DNA of 25,021 bases from a virus. Numbering within the stretch: the first letter of the stretch is position 1; each line of letters begins with the position of its first letter. This document shows positions 13,052 to 18,800 of the stretch, one piece after another. The notes under the pieces are model-generated. The model was not told where the DNA came from. It did not search any database and saw only the letters and a program-made list of their open reading frames with translations. A program made the translations under genes and the position numbers. The stretch lies in the IMG/VR virus record IMGVR_UViG_3300032265_000044, positions 1-25,021 of that record, one strand, 5' to 3'.

Positions 13052-13360
13052 TTAGAAAGGTGGCAATTGCGGTTGTGATACAGGCTGAGATAACTGTGTT
13101 ATTTGTGCAGCAATCCCAGTTTCTACGGCTGGCATACTAATGCAATCCGATACCCATGCATAAGCCATTTCTTGCGTAATGTCAGCATATGGAATGAATT
13201 TGGCTGGGCTAGGTGTACCAAGTTTTGCCGTACCAGATGCAGATGACGATATTGTGCCATCCGTGCCAGTGCATACCCAGTTTATGGCCGTGACTACATT
13301 AGTCAGGTCATCGTATGTTGGGGATACAATAAATTGAGGAAACGTCCATGTGAACTGCAT
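13052..13360 (-). CDS. DUF7936-like small phage protein (102 aa)
   Basis: I choose ATG 13358-13360 (MQFTWTFPQFIVSPTYDDLT). The open frame continues to 13471, but that extension only overlaps the upstream gene. A GAG-containing purine patch lies about 7 bases before this ATG. The protein follows the pattern FTW-xxxx, then VVTAINWVCTGTDG, SSASGTAKL, FIPYADITQEMAYAWVSD and a Gln/Pro tail. This matches, from memory, a roughly 100-residue tail-module family now called DUF7936. Such genes commonly accompany fibre genes in environmental phages. The role is unknown. It may be a small fibre or tail accessory. Confidence 0.65.
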   Translation of the reverse strand: MQFTWTFPQFIVSPTYDDLTNVVTAINWVCTGTDGTISSSASGTAKLGTPSPAKFIPYADITQEMAYAWVSDCISMPAVETGIAAQITQLSQPVSQPQLPPF

Positions 13361-13379
13361 TACACACTCATAAAATTGA

Positions 13380-13613
13380 TTAAGGCGTTGGTGGATTAGG
13401 ATCAGTAAATTGCCCCGTTGCTGGATCATATATCCAGCCAAATGTGACAGAAGAGTTGTCGGGTAATGCAACTAATGTGCAACCTTCTGGAGCTGGGTCA
13501 ATAGAGGGATCAGCAACAATAATATTGATAACAGTTTCATCACTGTTTTGAACAACTGCACAGTTTTGTGGATTGCCATTAGGCTCAACTATTTGCATTG
13601 GACCTCCAAACAT
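13380..13613 (-). CDS. Fibre partner protein, paralogue 1 (77 aa)
   Basis: Its ATG (13611-13613) shares one base with the TAA of the 603-residue fibre (TAATG), implying coupled translation. From residue 18 it matches the 60-residue protein at 15620-15802: AVVQNS(D/N)ETVINIIVADPS, then DPA-x-EGCTLVALPD and VTFGWIYDPA-x-G-x-FT. The form 'V-N-x-I-V-A-D ... LV-x-LPD ... GW-x-YD-x-x-x-G-x-F' resembles the N-terminal part of small tail-fibre assembly proteins and a motif seen in phage fibre accessory genes. An additional 15 residues at the N-terminus (MFGGPMQIVEPNGNP) are absent from the paralogue. Likely a fibre-associated assembly factor or tip protein, inferred from place and duplication. Confidence 0.65.
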   Translation of the reverse strand: MFGGPMQIVEPNGNPQNCAVVQNSDETVINIIVADPSIDPAPEGCTLVALPDNSSVTFGWIYDPATGQFTDPNPPTP

Positions 13614-15424
13614 TACGTGTACTCCCAGATGCGAATGACGCCTTGTTTTCCATTTGGCGCAGCTGAATTTCCAATCGAAGCACCGCTTCCACTTCCGTAT
13701 CCAGTTCCAGCCCCACCAATATTACCACCAAGAGCGCCAACTCCCCCGCCTCCAAAGAAGCTGCCTCCACCACTGCCGCCTACACCAACAGAGGCATCAT
13801 CGCTACCAAACCCTCCGGCACTTCCGCCGCCATTAAGATCACCATTTGTACCAGAACCGCCAGCTCCGCCGGGCTTTTTACCAGTTGCACTATTCCCGCC
13901 TAATCCGAAGGAACCACCACTAGCTGTTATAGTGGTGGCGCTTACAGTAAAGGTTGAATTTCCTCCAGCAGAACCATTTCCAACGGAACCTGATGATCCA
14001 CCTCCACCAATGGCATATGTATATGCTGTACTTGGGGAAACAGTAAAATATTTAGCCACATATCCGCCACCGCCGCCACCGCCAGCCGCTCCACTAGTTT
14101 GACCATTCCCACCTGAGCCGCCGCCTCCACCAACAACCTCAACATAGATTGAGTTACAACCAGCGGGTGTCGTGTAGGACGTGCCTGATGTTAATACCTG
14201 TGGAGCACGGATCAGCGTGCCTGTAGCAGCTGTGGCAGTCGCTGCAATCGTAATAGAACCCGCGCCATTAGTTACAGTAATACCTGAGCCAGCAGTAATA
14301 GTTGAACGGGTAAAGTTTGTTCCGTTTCCAATATCAATCGCACCGTTAGCTGGCGTTGATGTCAAACCAGTACCGCCATTGGCGACTGCTACAGTTCCAG
14401 AAACGTTTCCGGCTGTTGTTGCTGTTGCCGCATTACCGGATGTATTTACGTTAATCGTGGCTGGCAAGCTAAGGGTAACGCCGCCTGTGGATGCAGACGC
14501 GGTAATCTGACTGGCTGTTCCGGTTATGGACGTAACGCCACTATTACTAATCGTGACCGCACCAGTTGAACCGGAAACTGTAATGCCAGTACCCGCAACA
14601 TTTGATGTAACGCCGGTATTGGTGACACTTACAGCACCAGTAGCAGATGTATTAGTGCTTAAACCGCTGCTAGTCGTTAACGATGTAACACCCGTATTGG
14701 TCACACTAACAGCGCCAGTCGCAGATGTATTTGTGCTAAGACCACTACTAGTTGTTAAAGAAGTGACACCTGTATTAGAAATAGTAACGGCACCAGTGGC
14801 AGCCGATACGCCAATTCCAGTACCCGCGACATTGGAAGTAACAATACCAGTAAGACTTGAACCAGAACCGGCGTATGAAGTAGCGGTTACGGTGCCAACC
14901 ACTTGAAGCTTTGTGCTTGGTGATGATGTTCCGATGCCAACGCTACCCGATTGTGTTGCGAGATAAGTGTTACCCAGTACGGTCAATGTACCAAAGTTGT
15001 TGGTCAACCCATCGTCGGTATAACGGATGTTGGTGCCATCAGAGTAAATAGAGACATTATAGCCCTGTGGAGCTGAAACAGAAGTGCCGCCACCAGCCGA
15101 TGATACGGTAATCGAAAACGAACCAGATGTAGTGTTGTAAATAATCCATTTTCCAGAAATACCGGAAGGAAATTGCAATATTTGGTTGGCCGACAATGCG
15201 CCAGTCAACGTAATACGCATGGCTTGAGTTTGACCAAGTGAACCAGAGGATGTTGGCCCAGTAAGCGTAGTTGTAGCTGATGCGCCAGTTGGCATCGCGA
15301 TGGAAGTGGTGTTACCAAAAACGGCATCTAGAATCGTTTCGTTAAAATTTAACGGCTGATCCCACGTTGGCGACGTGCTATTATATACAGGTTGATTTAA
15401 CCCAGTATTAGTCGTCGTTGCCAT
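13613..15424 (-). CDS. Tail fibre with Gly-rich C-terminal domain (603 aa)
   Basis: The N-terminal 130 residues (TGLNQPVYNSTSPTWDQPLN...) resemble the attachment region of short-tail phage fibres. Residue 160 onward is a Ser/Thr/Gly repeat shaft: one GIGTSSP motif (SVGIGTSSPSTKLQV), then two identical 26-residue units (GVTSLTTSSGLSTNTSATGA plus VSVTNT) and further TGAVTISN-type repeats. Residues about 403-603 form a Gly-rich domain that starts GTLIRAPQVLTSGTSYTTPA, continues CNSIYVEVVGGGGG with many GGxGG runs, and ends GVIRIWEYT. The same domain ends the larger fibre. Such Gly-rich tips can fold as polyglycine-II helix bundles in known adhesins, so this is probably the receptor-binding tip. 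The domain name is by pattern only. The gene overlaps the 69-residue membrane gene by 17 bases. Confidence 0.8.
   Translation of the reverse strand: MATTTNTGLNQPVYNSTSPTWDQPLNFNETILDAVFGNTTSIAMPTGASATTTLTGPTSSGSLGQTQAMRITLTGALSANQILQFPSGISGKWIIYNTTSGSFSITVSSAGGGTSVSAPQGYNVSIYSDGTNIRYTDDGLTNNFGTLTVLGNTYLATQSGSVGIGTSSPSTKLQVVGTVTATSYAGSGSSLTGIVTSNVAGTGIGVSAATGAVTISNTGVTSLTTSSGLSTNTSATGAVSVTNTGVTSLTTSSGLSTNTSATGAVSVTNTGVTSNVAGTGITVSGSTGAVTISNSGVTSITGTASQITASASTGGVTLSLPATINVNTSGNAATATTAGNVSGTVAVANGGTGLTSTPANGAIDIGNGTNFTRSTITAGSGITVTNGAGSITIAATATAATGTLIRAPQVLTSGTSYTTPAGCNSIYVEVVGGGGGSGGNGQTSGAAGGGGGGGYVAKYFTVSPSTAYTYAIGGGGSSGSVGNGSAGGNSTFTVSATTITASGGSFGLGGNSATGKKPGGAGGSGTNGDLNGGGSAGGFGSDDASVGVGGSGGGSFFGGGGVGALGGNIGGAGTGYGSGSGASIGNSAAPNGKQGVIRIWEYT
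14127..14164 (-). repeat. 38-bp exact repeat shared by both fibre genes, copy 1
   Basis: Identical over 38 bases to 16328-16365 and encodes part of CNSIYVEVVGG in both fibres. A second identical run of 21 bases (14198-14218 and 16399-16419) lies at the same 2201-base offset. The segment between is similar but not identical. Confidence 0.85.
14604..14759 (-). repeat. 2 x 78-bp tandem repeat in the 603-aa fibre
   Basis: The units 14604-14681 and 14682-14759 are exactly 78 bases each and encode the same 26 residues (starting GVTSLTTSSG). By my reading they differ at 13 bases, and none changes the protein. A diverged third unit follows. Confidence 0.85.
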
Positions 15425-15617
15425 TGGTAATATCCTTCTTACGGCCTAGAATCTGCTGAAAAGTTTCAGTTTCGTATATCCGAATGCTATACCATATAAT
15501 AGGCAACAATGCACCAAGGGGTGTTAGCCAGCCAAATAACGTCGTAATAGTAGCGGAAATAGATATCCAATCCATTAGATGCTTCATTCCTCTATCAATG
15601 TTATCTGTTGCTGACAT
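15408..15617 (-). CDS. Small membrane protein, putative accessory holin (69 aa)
   Basis: The start is ATG 15615-15617, because AGAGG (15625-15629) lies 7 bases upstream. A TTG two codons earlier would be only a few bases from it. A short charged N-terminus (MSATDNIDRGMKHLMDW) precedes a hydrophobic region, residues 18-48 (ISISATITTLFGWLTPLGAL and LPIIWYSIRIY), long enough for one bent or two short membrane spans. The C-terminus is charged (FQQILGRKKDITNGNDD). This layout is that of small holin-like phage proteins, but it sits between the two fibre cassettes and 3 kb from the endolysin. Lysis timing, or a fibre-module passenger, are both possible. It overlaps the 603-residue fibre start by 17 bases. 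Confidence 0.6.
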   Translation of the reverse strand: MSATDNIDRGMKHLMDWISISATITTLFGWLTPLGALLPIIWYSIRIYETETFQQILGRKKDITNGNDD

Positions 15618-15619
15618 AA

Positions 15620-15802
15620 TCAAACCTCTGTAGGTGCAGTAAATGTACCATTAGCAGGATCATAAATCCAACCGAATGTCACGGGGGAACCGTCAGGCAG
15701 CGCAACCAATGTGCAGCCTTCTGTAGCTGGATCAACAGATGGATCAGCAACAATGATATTGATTACGGTTTCATTGCTGTTTTGAACAACTGCACTATTC
15801 AT
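15620..15802 (-). CDS. Fibre partner protein, paralogue 2 (60 aa)
   Basis: I start at ATG 15800-15802 (MNSAVVQNSNETVINIIVAD), which shares a base with the TAA of the 2268-residue fibre (TAATG). An in-frame extension to 15817 lies within the fibre end. The protein continues PSVDPATEGCTLVALPDGSP and VTFGWIYDPANGTFTAP. It closely matches residues 18-77 of the protein at 13380-13613. Both copies follow a fibre ending in GVIR(I/V)WEYT, with the same sequence at the join (ACACGTAATG). The position and the duplication argue for a job tied to the fibre tip, such as a chaperone or bound partner, though direct evidence is lacking. No membrane or signal segment. Confidence 0.7.
   Translation of the reverse strand: MNSAVVQNSNETVINIIVADPSVDPATEGCTLVALPDGSPVTFGWIYDPANGTFTAPTEV
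15625..15629 (-). promoter_or_regulatory. Ribosome binding site that fixes the 69-aa protein start
   Basis: AGAGG on the - strand ends 7 bases before ATG 15617, the optimal distance. It is too close to the in-frame TTG at 15623 to serve that codon. Confidence 0.6.
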
Positions 15803-18800
15803 TACGTGTACTCCCAAACGCGGATAACACCAGCAGCACCAGCGCCAGAGCTAGTGCTGCCTGAACCGGAACCACCACCCGCACCGCCGCCGCCATATGT
15901 ATTTCCTGCTGCACCATCATTTTGAGGAGAACCGCCCCCAAAATAACTTCCACCGCCATTACCATAAATTGCGTTAGTCGATGATACCCAAAATCCAGAA
16001 GTTCCGCCGCTTCCGCGTATATTTAAATCGCCACCAGAACCAATTCCGCTTGCGCCACCCACTGTGCTGCCAAAAGTAAAAGATGCAACTTGACCGCCGC
16101 CGCCGCCACCACCACCAGTAATTGTTACGCTAGATGGCCCAGTAAATGTGGTATTTCCGCCAGAGTTACCATTAGTGCTATTAACAGAAACTGCTGTCCC
16201 TCCAGCCCCAATTGCGTATGCGTAAGCAGTGCTTGGGGAAACAGTAAAATACTTAGCAGAATACCCACCGCCACCGCCACCAGCACTAGCACCGGAAGAT
16301 ATTGCTTTATTTCCTCCCGAACCACCGCCACCAACAACCTCAACATAGATTGAGTTACAACCAGCAGGGGTTGTGTAGGATGTTCCAGATGTCAGAATCT
16401 GTGGAGCACGGATCAGCGTACCTGACGCCGTTGCTGATGCAGTAGCGCGGTATAACTGACCGGATGAGTTTACATATACGTTGGCTGCTGTTGCACTAGT
16501 ACTGCTGTAGACGGATGGAATAAGCACGTTGCCGGAGGAGTCGATACGCATACGTTCTGTACCGCCCGTAGCAAGTACGGTGTAAGAACCATTGATTGCC
16601 ATTGGTTGATATGCAGATTGGGCAGCATTTACAGCTTCAATAGATGAACCAGAATAAGCGGAGTTATATCCACCTAAGCGCATCCCGCCTGTTGCGCCAA
16701 AAAAGAACCCAACGCCGTTACCATCGCCGCCAACTACAGCAAACTTACCGTAAGTGCTTGGCGAAGTCGTCCCAATACCTACGTTGCCGCTGCCGTCAAT
16801 AGTCATTCGAACTTTTGATGCGGCAGTGTCTGCGGATGTTTGGCCCGTGAAAAACAAAAGCTGTGTTCCAGCGGACTGTGTGTATATACCGGAAACAGCA
16901 GTGCTATCTTGAAAACCAATACCCCCGCCATACGCCCCCCCGCCTAATATAGCAGGGTAACTGGCAACTCCGGCGGGAGTAAACACACCAGTAACTTGCA
17001 ACCTTGAATTTGGCGAACTCGTCCCAATACCTACGTTGCCGGAGGAGTCGATACGCATACGTTCTGTGGCGTTGGTATTAAACAACATTGGTGCATTGGC
17101 GTCAGTCGTAATTGTAACCGCACCGTCAGTTGCGCTTTGTGAAAATGCAGCGGTGTTTTGTGTTCCTGCTTTTAACAAAAACTTGGCAACGCCACTGGTA
17201 TTAGTGTTATAAACCCACGTTGAAAGAACGCCAGCAACATTGCCAGAAACTGTCAATTTTTCAGTTGGCGAAGTCGTCCCAATACCTACGTTGCCGCTAG
17301 TATCAATACGCATACGTTCTGACTGGCTACCCGTCTTAAATATGATGCTGTCAGTTGTACCCGCGCCAGACGTGGATTCCAATGTCAGTGTAGACGATGC
17401 TGCCGTTCCACCGATCAAGAGTGGTGTTGTGAGCGATGTAGTTAGCGTTGGCGAGGCAGAGTAAGATGGAGCAACACCAACACCGCCCGATACCAATACG
17501 GAGCCAGTAGCAACGTCCGCCAGCTTTGATAAAGCGGTTGTCGTGGAGGCATACAGCAAATCACCAATGGTATACGAGGATTGTCCTGTGCCACCGTTTG
17601 CAACAGTCAAAGCATTTGTAAGAGACAATGTGCCAATGGCTGTCGTTGACGTACTCAGAAATGTAGCATTACCATTAGAGGCAATTGTCAGAGCTGTTAC
17701 AGCACCGTTATTACCTGTCTTAAAGAGAATACTATCAGTTGTTCCCACACCGGTAGTTGATTGCAGCGTCAACGATGAGGATGCTAAAGTTCCACCAAAA
17801 TGAGATGGGGCAGTCAAAGATGTAAGTGTCGGCGTTGCCGAATAGGCAGGAGCAGCGCCAACACCACCCGAAACTAATACGGAACCCGTTGCGACATCCG
17901 CTAATTTGGATAGTGCCGTAGAAGACGAAGCATATAACAAATCGCCAATCGTATACGAGGATTGTCCCGTTCCGCCATTGGCTGCAACAAGAGTACCGGC
18001 GACAGTAACAGCACCAGTTGTGGCTGAGCTAGGCGTTAAACCAGTTGTGCCGAATGTAATTGATGTAACAGCGGCAGTTGTTGGGACTGAACCCCATGTC
18101 GGAGCACTTCCCGTTGTAGCTACAAGAACTTGTCCCGTAGTTCCAGCGCCAGTAACACCAAGAGCACTTGTTCCGTTACCATAAATAACGCCGTTAGCCG
18201 TAAATGTAGCCGCTCCCGTTCCACCGTTTGCGACAGTCAAAGCATTCGTAAGTGATAGTGTGCCAATGGCCGTTGTGGAGGCACTGAGGAATGTAGCGTT
18301 ACCATTAGAGGCAATTGTTAAAGCCGTTACAGCACCGTTATTACCCGTCTTAAATAAAATGCTATCAGTCGCTCCAACGCCAGATGTTGATTGAAGCGTG
18401 AGCGTTGACGATGTGGTCGTGCCACCAATGTGCAGTGGTGTCGTTAAGGATGTAGTTAATGTTGGCGAGGCAGAATAGGATGGAGCATTGCCGACGCCGC
18501 CAGATACTAGCACAGAGCCAGTAGCAACATCCGACAGCTTAGACAGCGTTGTAGCAGCTGACGCATAAAGAAGATCACCAACTGTGTAAGATGTTATATT
18601 TGTCCCACCACTAGCGACAGGAACAACGCCAGAAAGAGTGGCAAGAGTTACTGTTGTCCAAGTGGGGGCTGCTGATGGCCCACCAGACAAAAAGAACTGT
18701 CCAGATGTGCCATAAGTGCCCGCTCCAATACCGAACTGACCAGCTGGGCCAAACCGGAATGCTTCAGTGGCAGAGTTACCGCCTGTAGCAGTTGTATATA

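Follow-up and report, generated by a model that had tools for sequence, protein, structure and literature searches.

Organization of the fibre-partner gene pairs

The window, a 25,021-nucleotide stretch of the viral record IMGVR_UViG_3300032265_000044, contains two fibre genes, each followed by a gene for a small protein referred to here as its partner (Table 1). In both pairs one base is common to the TAA stop codon of the fibre gene and the ATG of the small gene, and both fibre tips match the Gly_rich_2 family (PF21722), in agreement with the original prediction that the small genes are coupled through TAATG to fibres with Gly-rich tips. The range 13380-15802 also holds fibre 1 and a gene for a small membrane protein.

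Table 1. Positions of the fibre, partner and neighbouring features in the window
Feature	Protein	Coordinates	Strand	Description
Partner 1	P0002, 77 aa	13380..13613	minus	Tfa-NTD-like stand-alone protein with N-terminal MFGGPMQIVEPNGNPQ extension
Partner 2	P0001, 60 aa	15620..15802	minus	Tfa-NTD-like stand-alone small protein
Fibre 1	P0004, 603 aa	13613..15424	minus	
Fibre 1 Gly-rich tip	residues 402-603	13613..14221	minus	TNF-like + Gly-rich fold; PF21722
Fibre 2	P0005, 2268 aa	15802..22608	minus	
Fibre 2 Gly-rich tip	residues 2063-2268	15802..16422	minus	PF21722
Stop/start overlap, fibre 1/partner 1		13611..13615	minus	TAATG
Stop/start overlap, fibre 2/partner 2		15800..15804	minus	TAATG
DUF7936 protein		13052..13360	minus	downstream neighbour of partner 1; PF25590, E 3.2e-20

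The two partners share a core running from AVVQNS to GWIYDPA..F, in which 44 of 51 aligned residues are identical (79% identity at the DNA level), whereas their termini differ as had been predicted: partner 1 starts with MFGGPMQIVEPNGNPQ, partner 2 with MNS, and the C-termini are also unlike. Nei-Gojobori estimates of dS 1.23 and dN 0.087 give a dN/dS ratio of approximately 0.07. The partners are therefore an old pair under strong constraint, and their similarity reflects neither chance nor a recent copy.

A second possible start of partner 1, an ATG at codon 6 preceded by GGAGG, is less likely because the relative at locus L007 retains FGGPM through synonymous codons that break the GGAGG. A longer reading frame for partner 2 with a TTG start at 15817 is unsupported, since the TAATG start is common to its relatives. 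A GGGAG sequence within the WEYT codons of fibre 2 could act as the ribosome site for partner 2.

Fibre tips, partner families and the Pam3 complex

Fibre 1 matched PF21722 with an E value of 1.2e-9. For fibre 2 the match came from its last 235 residues (E 7.9e-13); a query with the whole protein, which is little informative, matched no family. Fibre 1 also matched phrog_863 (E 4.9e-22), which carries the label "tail fiber assembly" and the category tail. The AlphaFold2 model of the fibre 1 tip (pLDDT 94.2) shows a TNF-like and Gly-rich fold and aligns to the fibre protein gp24 of phage Pam3 (E 7.5e-10, Z 23.5, 2.4 A over 191 residues). Pam3 gp24 itself scores 23.8 bits against PF21722, for which the cut-off is 24.3.

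Both partners belong to the phrog_14370 family (E 2.3e-6 for P0002 and 4.2e-5 for P0001), which is listed in PHROGs, like phrog_18617, as having unknown function. Neither partner matched Caudo_TAP (PF02413) up to an E value of 1 or DUF4376 (PF14301), and a search of NCBIfam returned nothing useful. Two other matches were set aside: P0002 has only YDPATGQF in common with bacterial genes at L103 and L104 (genome_contigs), and a 35-residue match in a Thermus phage (L120) falls where two long and dissimilar genes meet.

When the AlphaFold2 model of partner 1 (pLDDT 90.6) was compared with 350,542 chains, the first match was residues 1-62 of Pam3 gp25, a weak match taken alone (Foldseek E 1.4, probability 0.44; VIA Z 4.6, 3.5 A over 59 residues). 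At the sequence level, profile A3 found no Pam3 match in the PDB, and a direct comparison of the partner with gp25 covered only GW..F..P, a similarity that is not significant. The model weakly suggests that partner 1 adopts a beta-sandwich like the N-terminal one of gp25. The nearest solved structures of the tip and, weakly, of the partner are two chains of one fibre-chaperone complex.

In the Pam3 report (PMC9608196), gp25 is the chaperone of fibre gp24 (PDB 7YPX): its N-terminal domain binds the tip, gp24 becomes soluble on co-expression with gp25, and the authors liken gp25 to intramolecular chaperones. As in the window, the gp25 gene lies behind that of a PF21722-type fibre, but 11 bases separate the two genes in Pam3 whereas those of the window overlap, and gp25 is a protein of 162 residues with a C-terminal helical trimeriser which the window partners do not possess. 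The partners had been proposed to act in place of a missing S74 domain. The S74 domain (PF13884) was not found in fibre 1 or in the last 235 residues of fibre 2; the analogy itself is loose, given that the partners have no helical trimeriser. S16-type gp38 adhesins, according to the same report, are likewise accessory gene products tied to a long fibre with a Gly-rich fibre-end architecture; there the Gly-rich domain resides on the separate protein, whereas in the window it is part of the fibre and the partners themselves are not Gly-rich.

Association of the partner domain with Gly-rich fibres

Searches of IMG/VR gave 124 matches, from which the window copies L011 and L012 were skipped; L093 (base 2) has no upstream sequence. 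Relatives were counted as units defined by a distinct small protein together with the last 30 upstream residues; some near-copies remain among the 57 units, which include the two of the window itself (identical in L001). In 51 of these the small gene follows a Gly-rich fibre (50 by threshold, and L010 after its upstream gene was read in the right frame). The tip encoded before the small gene is not Gly-rich in the other six (L061-L066), and in five of them a Gly-rich gene starts directly behind the small gene, while L065 ends too early. Among 261 ORFs in 47 representative loci, which include one threshold case (L073, Gly 0.20), the association gave a Fisher p value of 7e-28, uncorrected for relatedness.

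The same arrangement was found in named phages, where a Gly-rich fibre precedes the small domain in 20 of 20 judged records (L113 and L115 sit at the threshold of 0.22; L112, Bordetella PBb002, was left out as its upstream gene is cut by the start of the record). Their regions contain 117 ORFs of at least 200 residues, and each of the 20 Gly-rich ones lies directly before the small domain. A Gly-rich fibre also precedes the relative at all 11 loci found with a divergent query; the Bcep1 query matched only itself in IMG/VR, and one relative-search query found no named phage. The original prediction had regarded relatives in phages devoid of Gly-rich fibres as evidence against it; a search for these among the 57 units and the named phages yielded none. 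Within the sample, the link between the partner and Gly-rich tips is close to exclusive. In the opposite direction, 18 of 62 Gly-rich ORFs of the representative loci have no partner, which is also absent from 6 of 20 judged loci with a Gly-rich fibre in a separate set (selected from 24, as three extend past the end of the sequence and L174 stops at the junction; several are mutual near-copies, and L163 is the twin of the window).

The partner-type domain is also present as the beginning of larger proteins. It opens the Caudo_TAP tail-fibre assembly (Tfa) proteins of three phages, Goslar (QBO63882.1), Pantoea AAM22 (gp51) and AH07 (gp24), whose N-terminal parts belong to phrog_14370, as well as a DUF4376 protein of Pseudomonas phage Aura (WYW01035.1). 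BLAST relatives of the fibre chaperone gp27 of Alteromonas phage V22 carry DUF4376, according to PMC7289586. In the Tfa proteins, Caudo_TAP extends from approximately residue 32-43 to the end, so that it takes in the latter half of the shared domain as well, whereas the window partners match neither Caudo_TAP nor DUF4376. The Goslar protein scored 37.1 bits against profile A2, built without sequences of named phages (E 2.2e-12 in a 20-sequence search), and 72 bits against profile A3, which includes Goslar; the Tfa profile phrog_188 already covers it from residue 1.

Like the window partners, the Goslar-type Tfa proteins are encoded directly behind a Gly-rich fibre. From 35 Goslar-like Tfa loci, three (L144, L156 and L157) were left out because the true Tfa start was not reached and the fibre could not be judged. 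Among the 32 fully read proteins, the partner-type domain and a Gly-rich tip occur together only at the Goslar contig; the 31 others lack the domain and follow Gly-poor tips. Within the sample, Tfa proteins with the domain at their start (3, versus 31 others) occur only behind Gly-rich fibres.

These results bear on the alternative that the small protein is a passenger, that is, a small component of the virion or baseplate, or a protein with an unrelated task, which merely resides within the fibre operon. The solo forms have no domain of tested function and their PHROGs families are unannotated, as a passenger would allow. However, records from Gram-negative and from Gram-positive hosts alike show the link to Gly-rich tips, although the genes behind the partner vary, and among Tfa proteins the domain changes with the tip type, making a passenger highly improbable.

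Specificity and proposed function of the partners

The original prediction had each small protein working on the fibre to which it is coupled. The window, where every Gly-rich fibre has one partner gene, and the repeated fibre-partner units of L016 and L017 are compatible with dedicated pairs, in which a partner has become adapted to its coupled fibre and works with no other. However, across 37 pairs partner distance did not correlate with tip-scaffold distance (Mantel r 0.15, p 0.10) or tip-loop distance (r 0.07, p 0.24), in a test whose power is limited by the slow evolution of the partners and whose scaffold and loop columns were hand-chosen. Moreover, the three partners of L017 are 89-94% identical, but the loops of their tips share only 29-57% identity, and therefore a single kind of partner may suit a range of tips. 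Fibre-specific pairing thus appears unlikely, and this part of the prediction was not borne out. We tentatively consider that partners of this kind may constitute a separate class of fibre chaperone, pared down to a solo tentacle domain with no trimeriser, which might serve any PF21722 tip of a phage by holding only its conserved scaffold. Such a generic clamp would leave the receptor loops free to diversify and would allow fibre-plus-partner cassettes to multiply, as in L017 with its three, with no need for a new dedicated chaperone to evolve each time.

An action of the small protein on the Gly-rich tip, as originally proposed, is supported by the gene order in the IMG/VR units, by the distribution of the domain among Tfa proteins and by the matches to Pam3 gp24 and gp25, from which we infer binding. 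The partners look like a stripped-down version of a helper domain that other phages use on Gly-rich tips, and they are probably stand-alone Tfa N-terminal "tentacle" domains that fold or clamp tips of the PF21722 type.

A different possibility is that the small protein is a permanent cap, which folds with the tip, remains on the virion and shapes or shields the receptor-binding loops. The Tfa of phage Mu reportedly stays bound to its fibre (PMC9608196 and PMC7289586), the TAATG overlap suggests near-equal amounts of both proteins, and the solo form has no linker-plus-trimeriser, an arrangement that the Pam3 authors tie to release (PMC9608196). In contrast, the closest candidate relative with a solved structure, Pam3 gp25, went undetected in virions, and the loops that it covers are presumed to bind the host (PMC9608196). 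The partners also vary little and the loops much, which fits a binder of the scaffold better than a receptor-facing part. A permanent cap therefore seems doubtful.

As a folding clamp, the partner would be made in cis while the C-terminus of the fibre leaves the ribosome, and translational coupling would probably keep the two proteins nearly equal in amount. Its docking site might be the conserved face of the tip, close to where the TNF-like and Gly-rich parts meet; there it could hold the Gly-rich loops aligned during trimer formation and would most likely depart afterwards. Because the partner has no trimerising helical domain, its copies, of which a fibre could hold up to three, would be expected to clamp independently of one another, with the fibre trimerising by itself. 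How tip folding is helped without a trimerising chaperone is a question raised by this arrangement.

This role would give phrog_14370 and phrog_18617 a precise and testable job. In our sample the domain marks PF21722-type Gly-rich tips, either solo or joined to one of two known C-terminal domains, a rule that would aid the annotation of fibres and their helpers in metagenomes. The findings also suggest a co-expression partner for producing Gly-rich phage tips in the laboratory.

In some relatives, the overlap slot of the partner is occupied by a DUF7936 gene. Ten distinct DUF7936 genes were found directly after a Gly-rich fibre (4 genes), after a partner (2 genes), after other genes (3 genes) or at a contig edge (one gene). 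In view of these mixed upstream genes, DUF7936 was rejected as a second partner of Gly-rich tips and is regarded as a general neighbour of fibre genes.

Gene junctions and constraint on the small proteins

The 25,021-base window of the virus record carries two fibre genes, each followed by a small gene (P0002, 77 aa, partner 1; P0001, 60 aa, partner 2), with lysis-type and structural genes after the DUF7936 gene in minus-strand order. Both fibres end in WEYT-TAA, the final A of the stop codon doubling as the A of the partner ATG. The TAATG coupling of both partners to Gly-rich-tip fibres, as described in the original prediction, was confirmed by the one-base stop/start overlap read at each junction, and GGGAG in the last fibre codons could be the ribosome site of the partner. 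Residues of the short membrane-type protein from the fourth codon on gave no family match.

Features of the window discussed in the text
Feature	Position	Strand	Remark
Fibre 2	22608-15802	minus	first in gene order
Partner 2	15802-15620	minus	next after fibre 2
Short protein, likely membrane segment	ATG 15617, end 15408	minus	between partner 2 and fibre 1
Fibre 1	15424-13613	minus	after short membrane protein
Tip model of fibre 1	13616-14230	minus	
Partner 1	13613-13380	minus	after fibre 1
DUF7936 protein	13360-13052	minus	after partner 1
Large protein, 1207 residues	3369-6992	minus	Peptidase_S74 (PF13884), residues 539-588, E 1.7e-9

The partners share 44 of 51 residues, with dS 1.23 and dN 0.087 over 51 codons, and are true coding sequences under constraint. 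Both TAATG starts were accepted because relatives share the extension (MFGGPMQ..PNG.PQ) seen at the N-terminus of partner 1, with synonymous changes in locus L007. An S74 domain is present in the window, since PF13884 matches the large protein, and none was seen on the fibre tips. This chaperone domain sits in the middle of that protein, not at its end.

Structural comparison with the Pam3 fibre-chaperone complex

The predicted model of the fibre 1 tip (37 sequences, pLDDT 94.2, pTM 0.90) matched first the Pam3 fibre gp24 (7ypx_A; E 7.5e-10, Z 23.5, 2.4 A over 191 residues, 28% identity), followed by the mycobacteriophage Bxb1 tail-tip chain 9d93_Qa (Z 17.9) and the glycine-rich domains of ALK/LTK (Z 8-10). 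For the partner 1 model (54 sequences, pLDDT 90.6), a Foldseek search of 350,542 PDB chains placed first the Pam3 chaperone gp25 (7ypx_a), a weak match with an E value of 1.4. VIA comparison with gp25 residues 1-62 gave Z 4.6 and 3.5 A over 59 residues, gp25 being the sole chain with Z of at least 2 among 178 compared. The Pam3 paper was known ahead of the structure search, so this match was sought beforehand and not chosen post hoc. Fibre and partner thus separately point to the two chains of one solved fibre-chaperone complex.

The model of partner 1 has five strands (16-22, 27-34, 45-49, 61-63 and 68-70), the same number as the N-terminal beta-sandwich of gp25, which is described as two plus three strands in the Pam3 report (PMC9608196). 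According to that report, this domain sits against the side of the Gly-rich and TNF-like domains, where strand 2 and a short helix make most of the contact; in the window partner, the second strand carries V28, N30 and I32, which are among the best-conserved residues of the family. It is also stated there that gp24 by itself formed mostly inclusion bodies and was soluble with gp25 in a 3:3 complex, and that gp25 was not detected in Pam3 virions (PMC9608196). The C-terminal helices of gp25 trimerise (PMC9608196), whereas the solo partners have no trimeriser; they may be either chaperones that leave or lasting caps.

Association with Gly-rich tips

IMG/VR queries with P0001, a profile and P0002 returned 100 loci, with the same contigs repeated. 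A profile scan of these and the window gave 124 matches, 123 of them with upstream sequence, which reduced to 57 distinct units including the window's own two. The one-base overlap was found in 42 units (41 TAATG, one TGATG). The upstream product contained at least 24% Gly over its last 180 residues or fewer in 50 of the 57, and L010, read in frame, is a 51st. A non-Gly-rich tip precedes the small gene in the remaining six (L061-L066), a collagen-type fibre (PF01391) in L062, the only one of these tested. A Gly-rich gene begins directly behind the small gene in five of the six (L065 ends too soon), and there the small gene may serve this downstream gene. Three consecutive Gly-rich fibre and partner units occur in one contig (L017, L018).

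Among ORFs of at least 150 aa in 47 representative loci, window included, 44 Gly-rich ORFs were followed by the small gene and 18 were not, compared to 7 and 192 non-Gly-rich ORFs (Fisher p 7e-28, inflated by related loci). A divergent query (Arash) of IMG/VR gave a Gly-rich upstream gene (24-40% Gly) in 11/11 loci.

From the match lists of four tblastn searches, 22 named-phage regions were fetched, of which 20 were used; L112 was left out for a cut-off upstream gene and L120 as a false match. They represent phages of Escherichia, Salmonella, Klebsiella, Pantoea, Pseudomonas, Bordetella, Burkholderia, Brevundimonas, Microbacterium and Arthrobacter, and one Wanchaivirus. Twenty of their 117 ORFs of at least 200 aa are Gly-rich (at least 22% Gly, last 150 residues), and all 20 directly precede the small domain. 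The 20 proteins comprise five solo forms (58-65 aa), three with Caudo_TAP, two of DUF4376 size (Aura and Peetri, Aura alone tested), eight actinophage forms (98-111 aa) whose tail is unassigned, and two Brevundimonas forms (161 aa).

Relation to tail-fibre assembly proteins and specificity

The PF02413 tail-fibre assembly (Tfa) proteins of Goslar (E 2.8e-20), AAM22 (9.3e-8) and AH07 (1.2e-12) begin with the partner domain, and the Aura protein has it ahead of DUF4376 (1.1e-9). PF02413 matches start at residues 32-43 and therefore overlap the second half of the domain. All ten proteins compared matched phrog_14370 (E 7.4e-10 for Goslar to 0.0084 for AAM22); the Tfa profile phrog_188 also covers the Goslar protein, from residue 1. 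Lacking the defining PF02413 domain, the partner falls outside the Caudo_TAP family, but some members of that family have this same domain as their N-terminal part, and the partner probably works like that part.

As a control, the Goslar C-terminal domain retrieved 35 IMG/VR Tfa loci, with 32 proteins fully readable. The small-domain profile matched only the Goslar contig (72 bits), which has the sole Gly-rich tip of the 32 (Gly 0.32). The other 31 Tfa proteins gave no meaningful match to it (best 0.8 bits) and have other N-terminal parts; their upstream products contain 8-14% Gly, and 28 of these 31 loci have an R.RN..FN type end, for example ETRPRNIAFNYIVRAA. In this sample, the N-terminal domain thus tracks tip type while the C-terminal domain is constant, a contrast of one Gly-rich case with 31 related ones; AAM22 and AH07 are further cases outside the control set.

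The proposal that each small protein acts on its own fibre was not supported by 37 partner-tip pairs. Partner distances were hardly related to scaffold distances of the tips (r 0.15, p 0.10) and showed no correlation with loop distances (r 0.07, p 0.24), whereas scaffold and loops were themselves correlated (r 0.70). The three partners in L017 are 89-94% identical, versus 29-57% for the loops of their tips. Together, these sequence comparisons argue for a partner that would read the conserved tip base and tolerate loop change, rather than one dedicated partner per fibre.

With the fibre 1 tip alone as query, 20 of 24 loci could be judged: the partner follows in 14, DUF7936 in the overlap slot in four and neither in two (L165, L166). 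DUF7936 occupies the stop/start-overlap slot of the partner behind a Gly-rich fibre in L028, L042, L172 and L176-L178; elsewhere, its gene comes after other genes.
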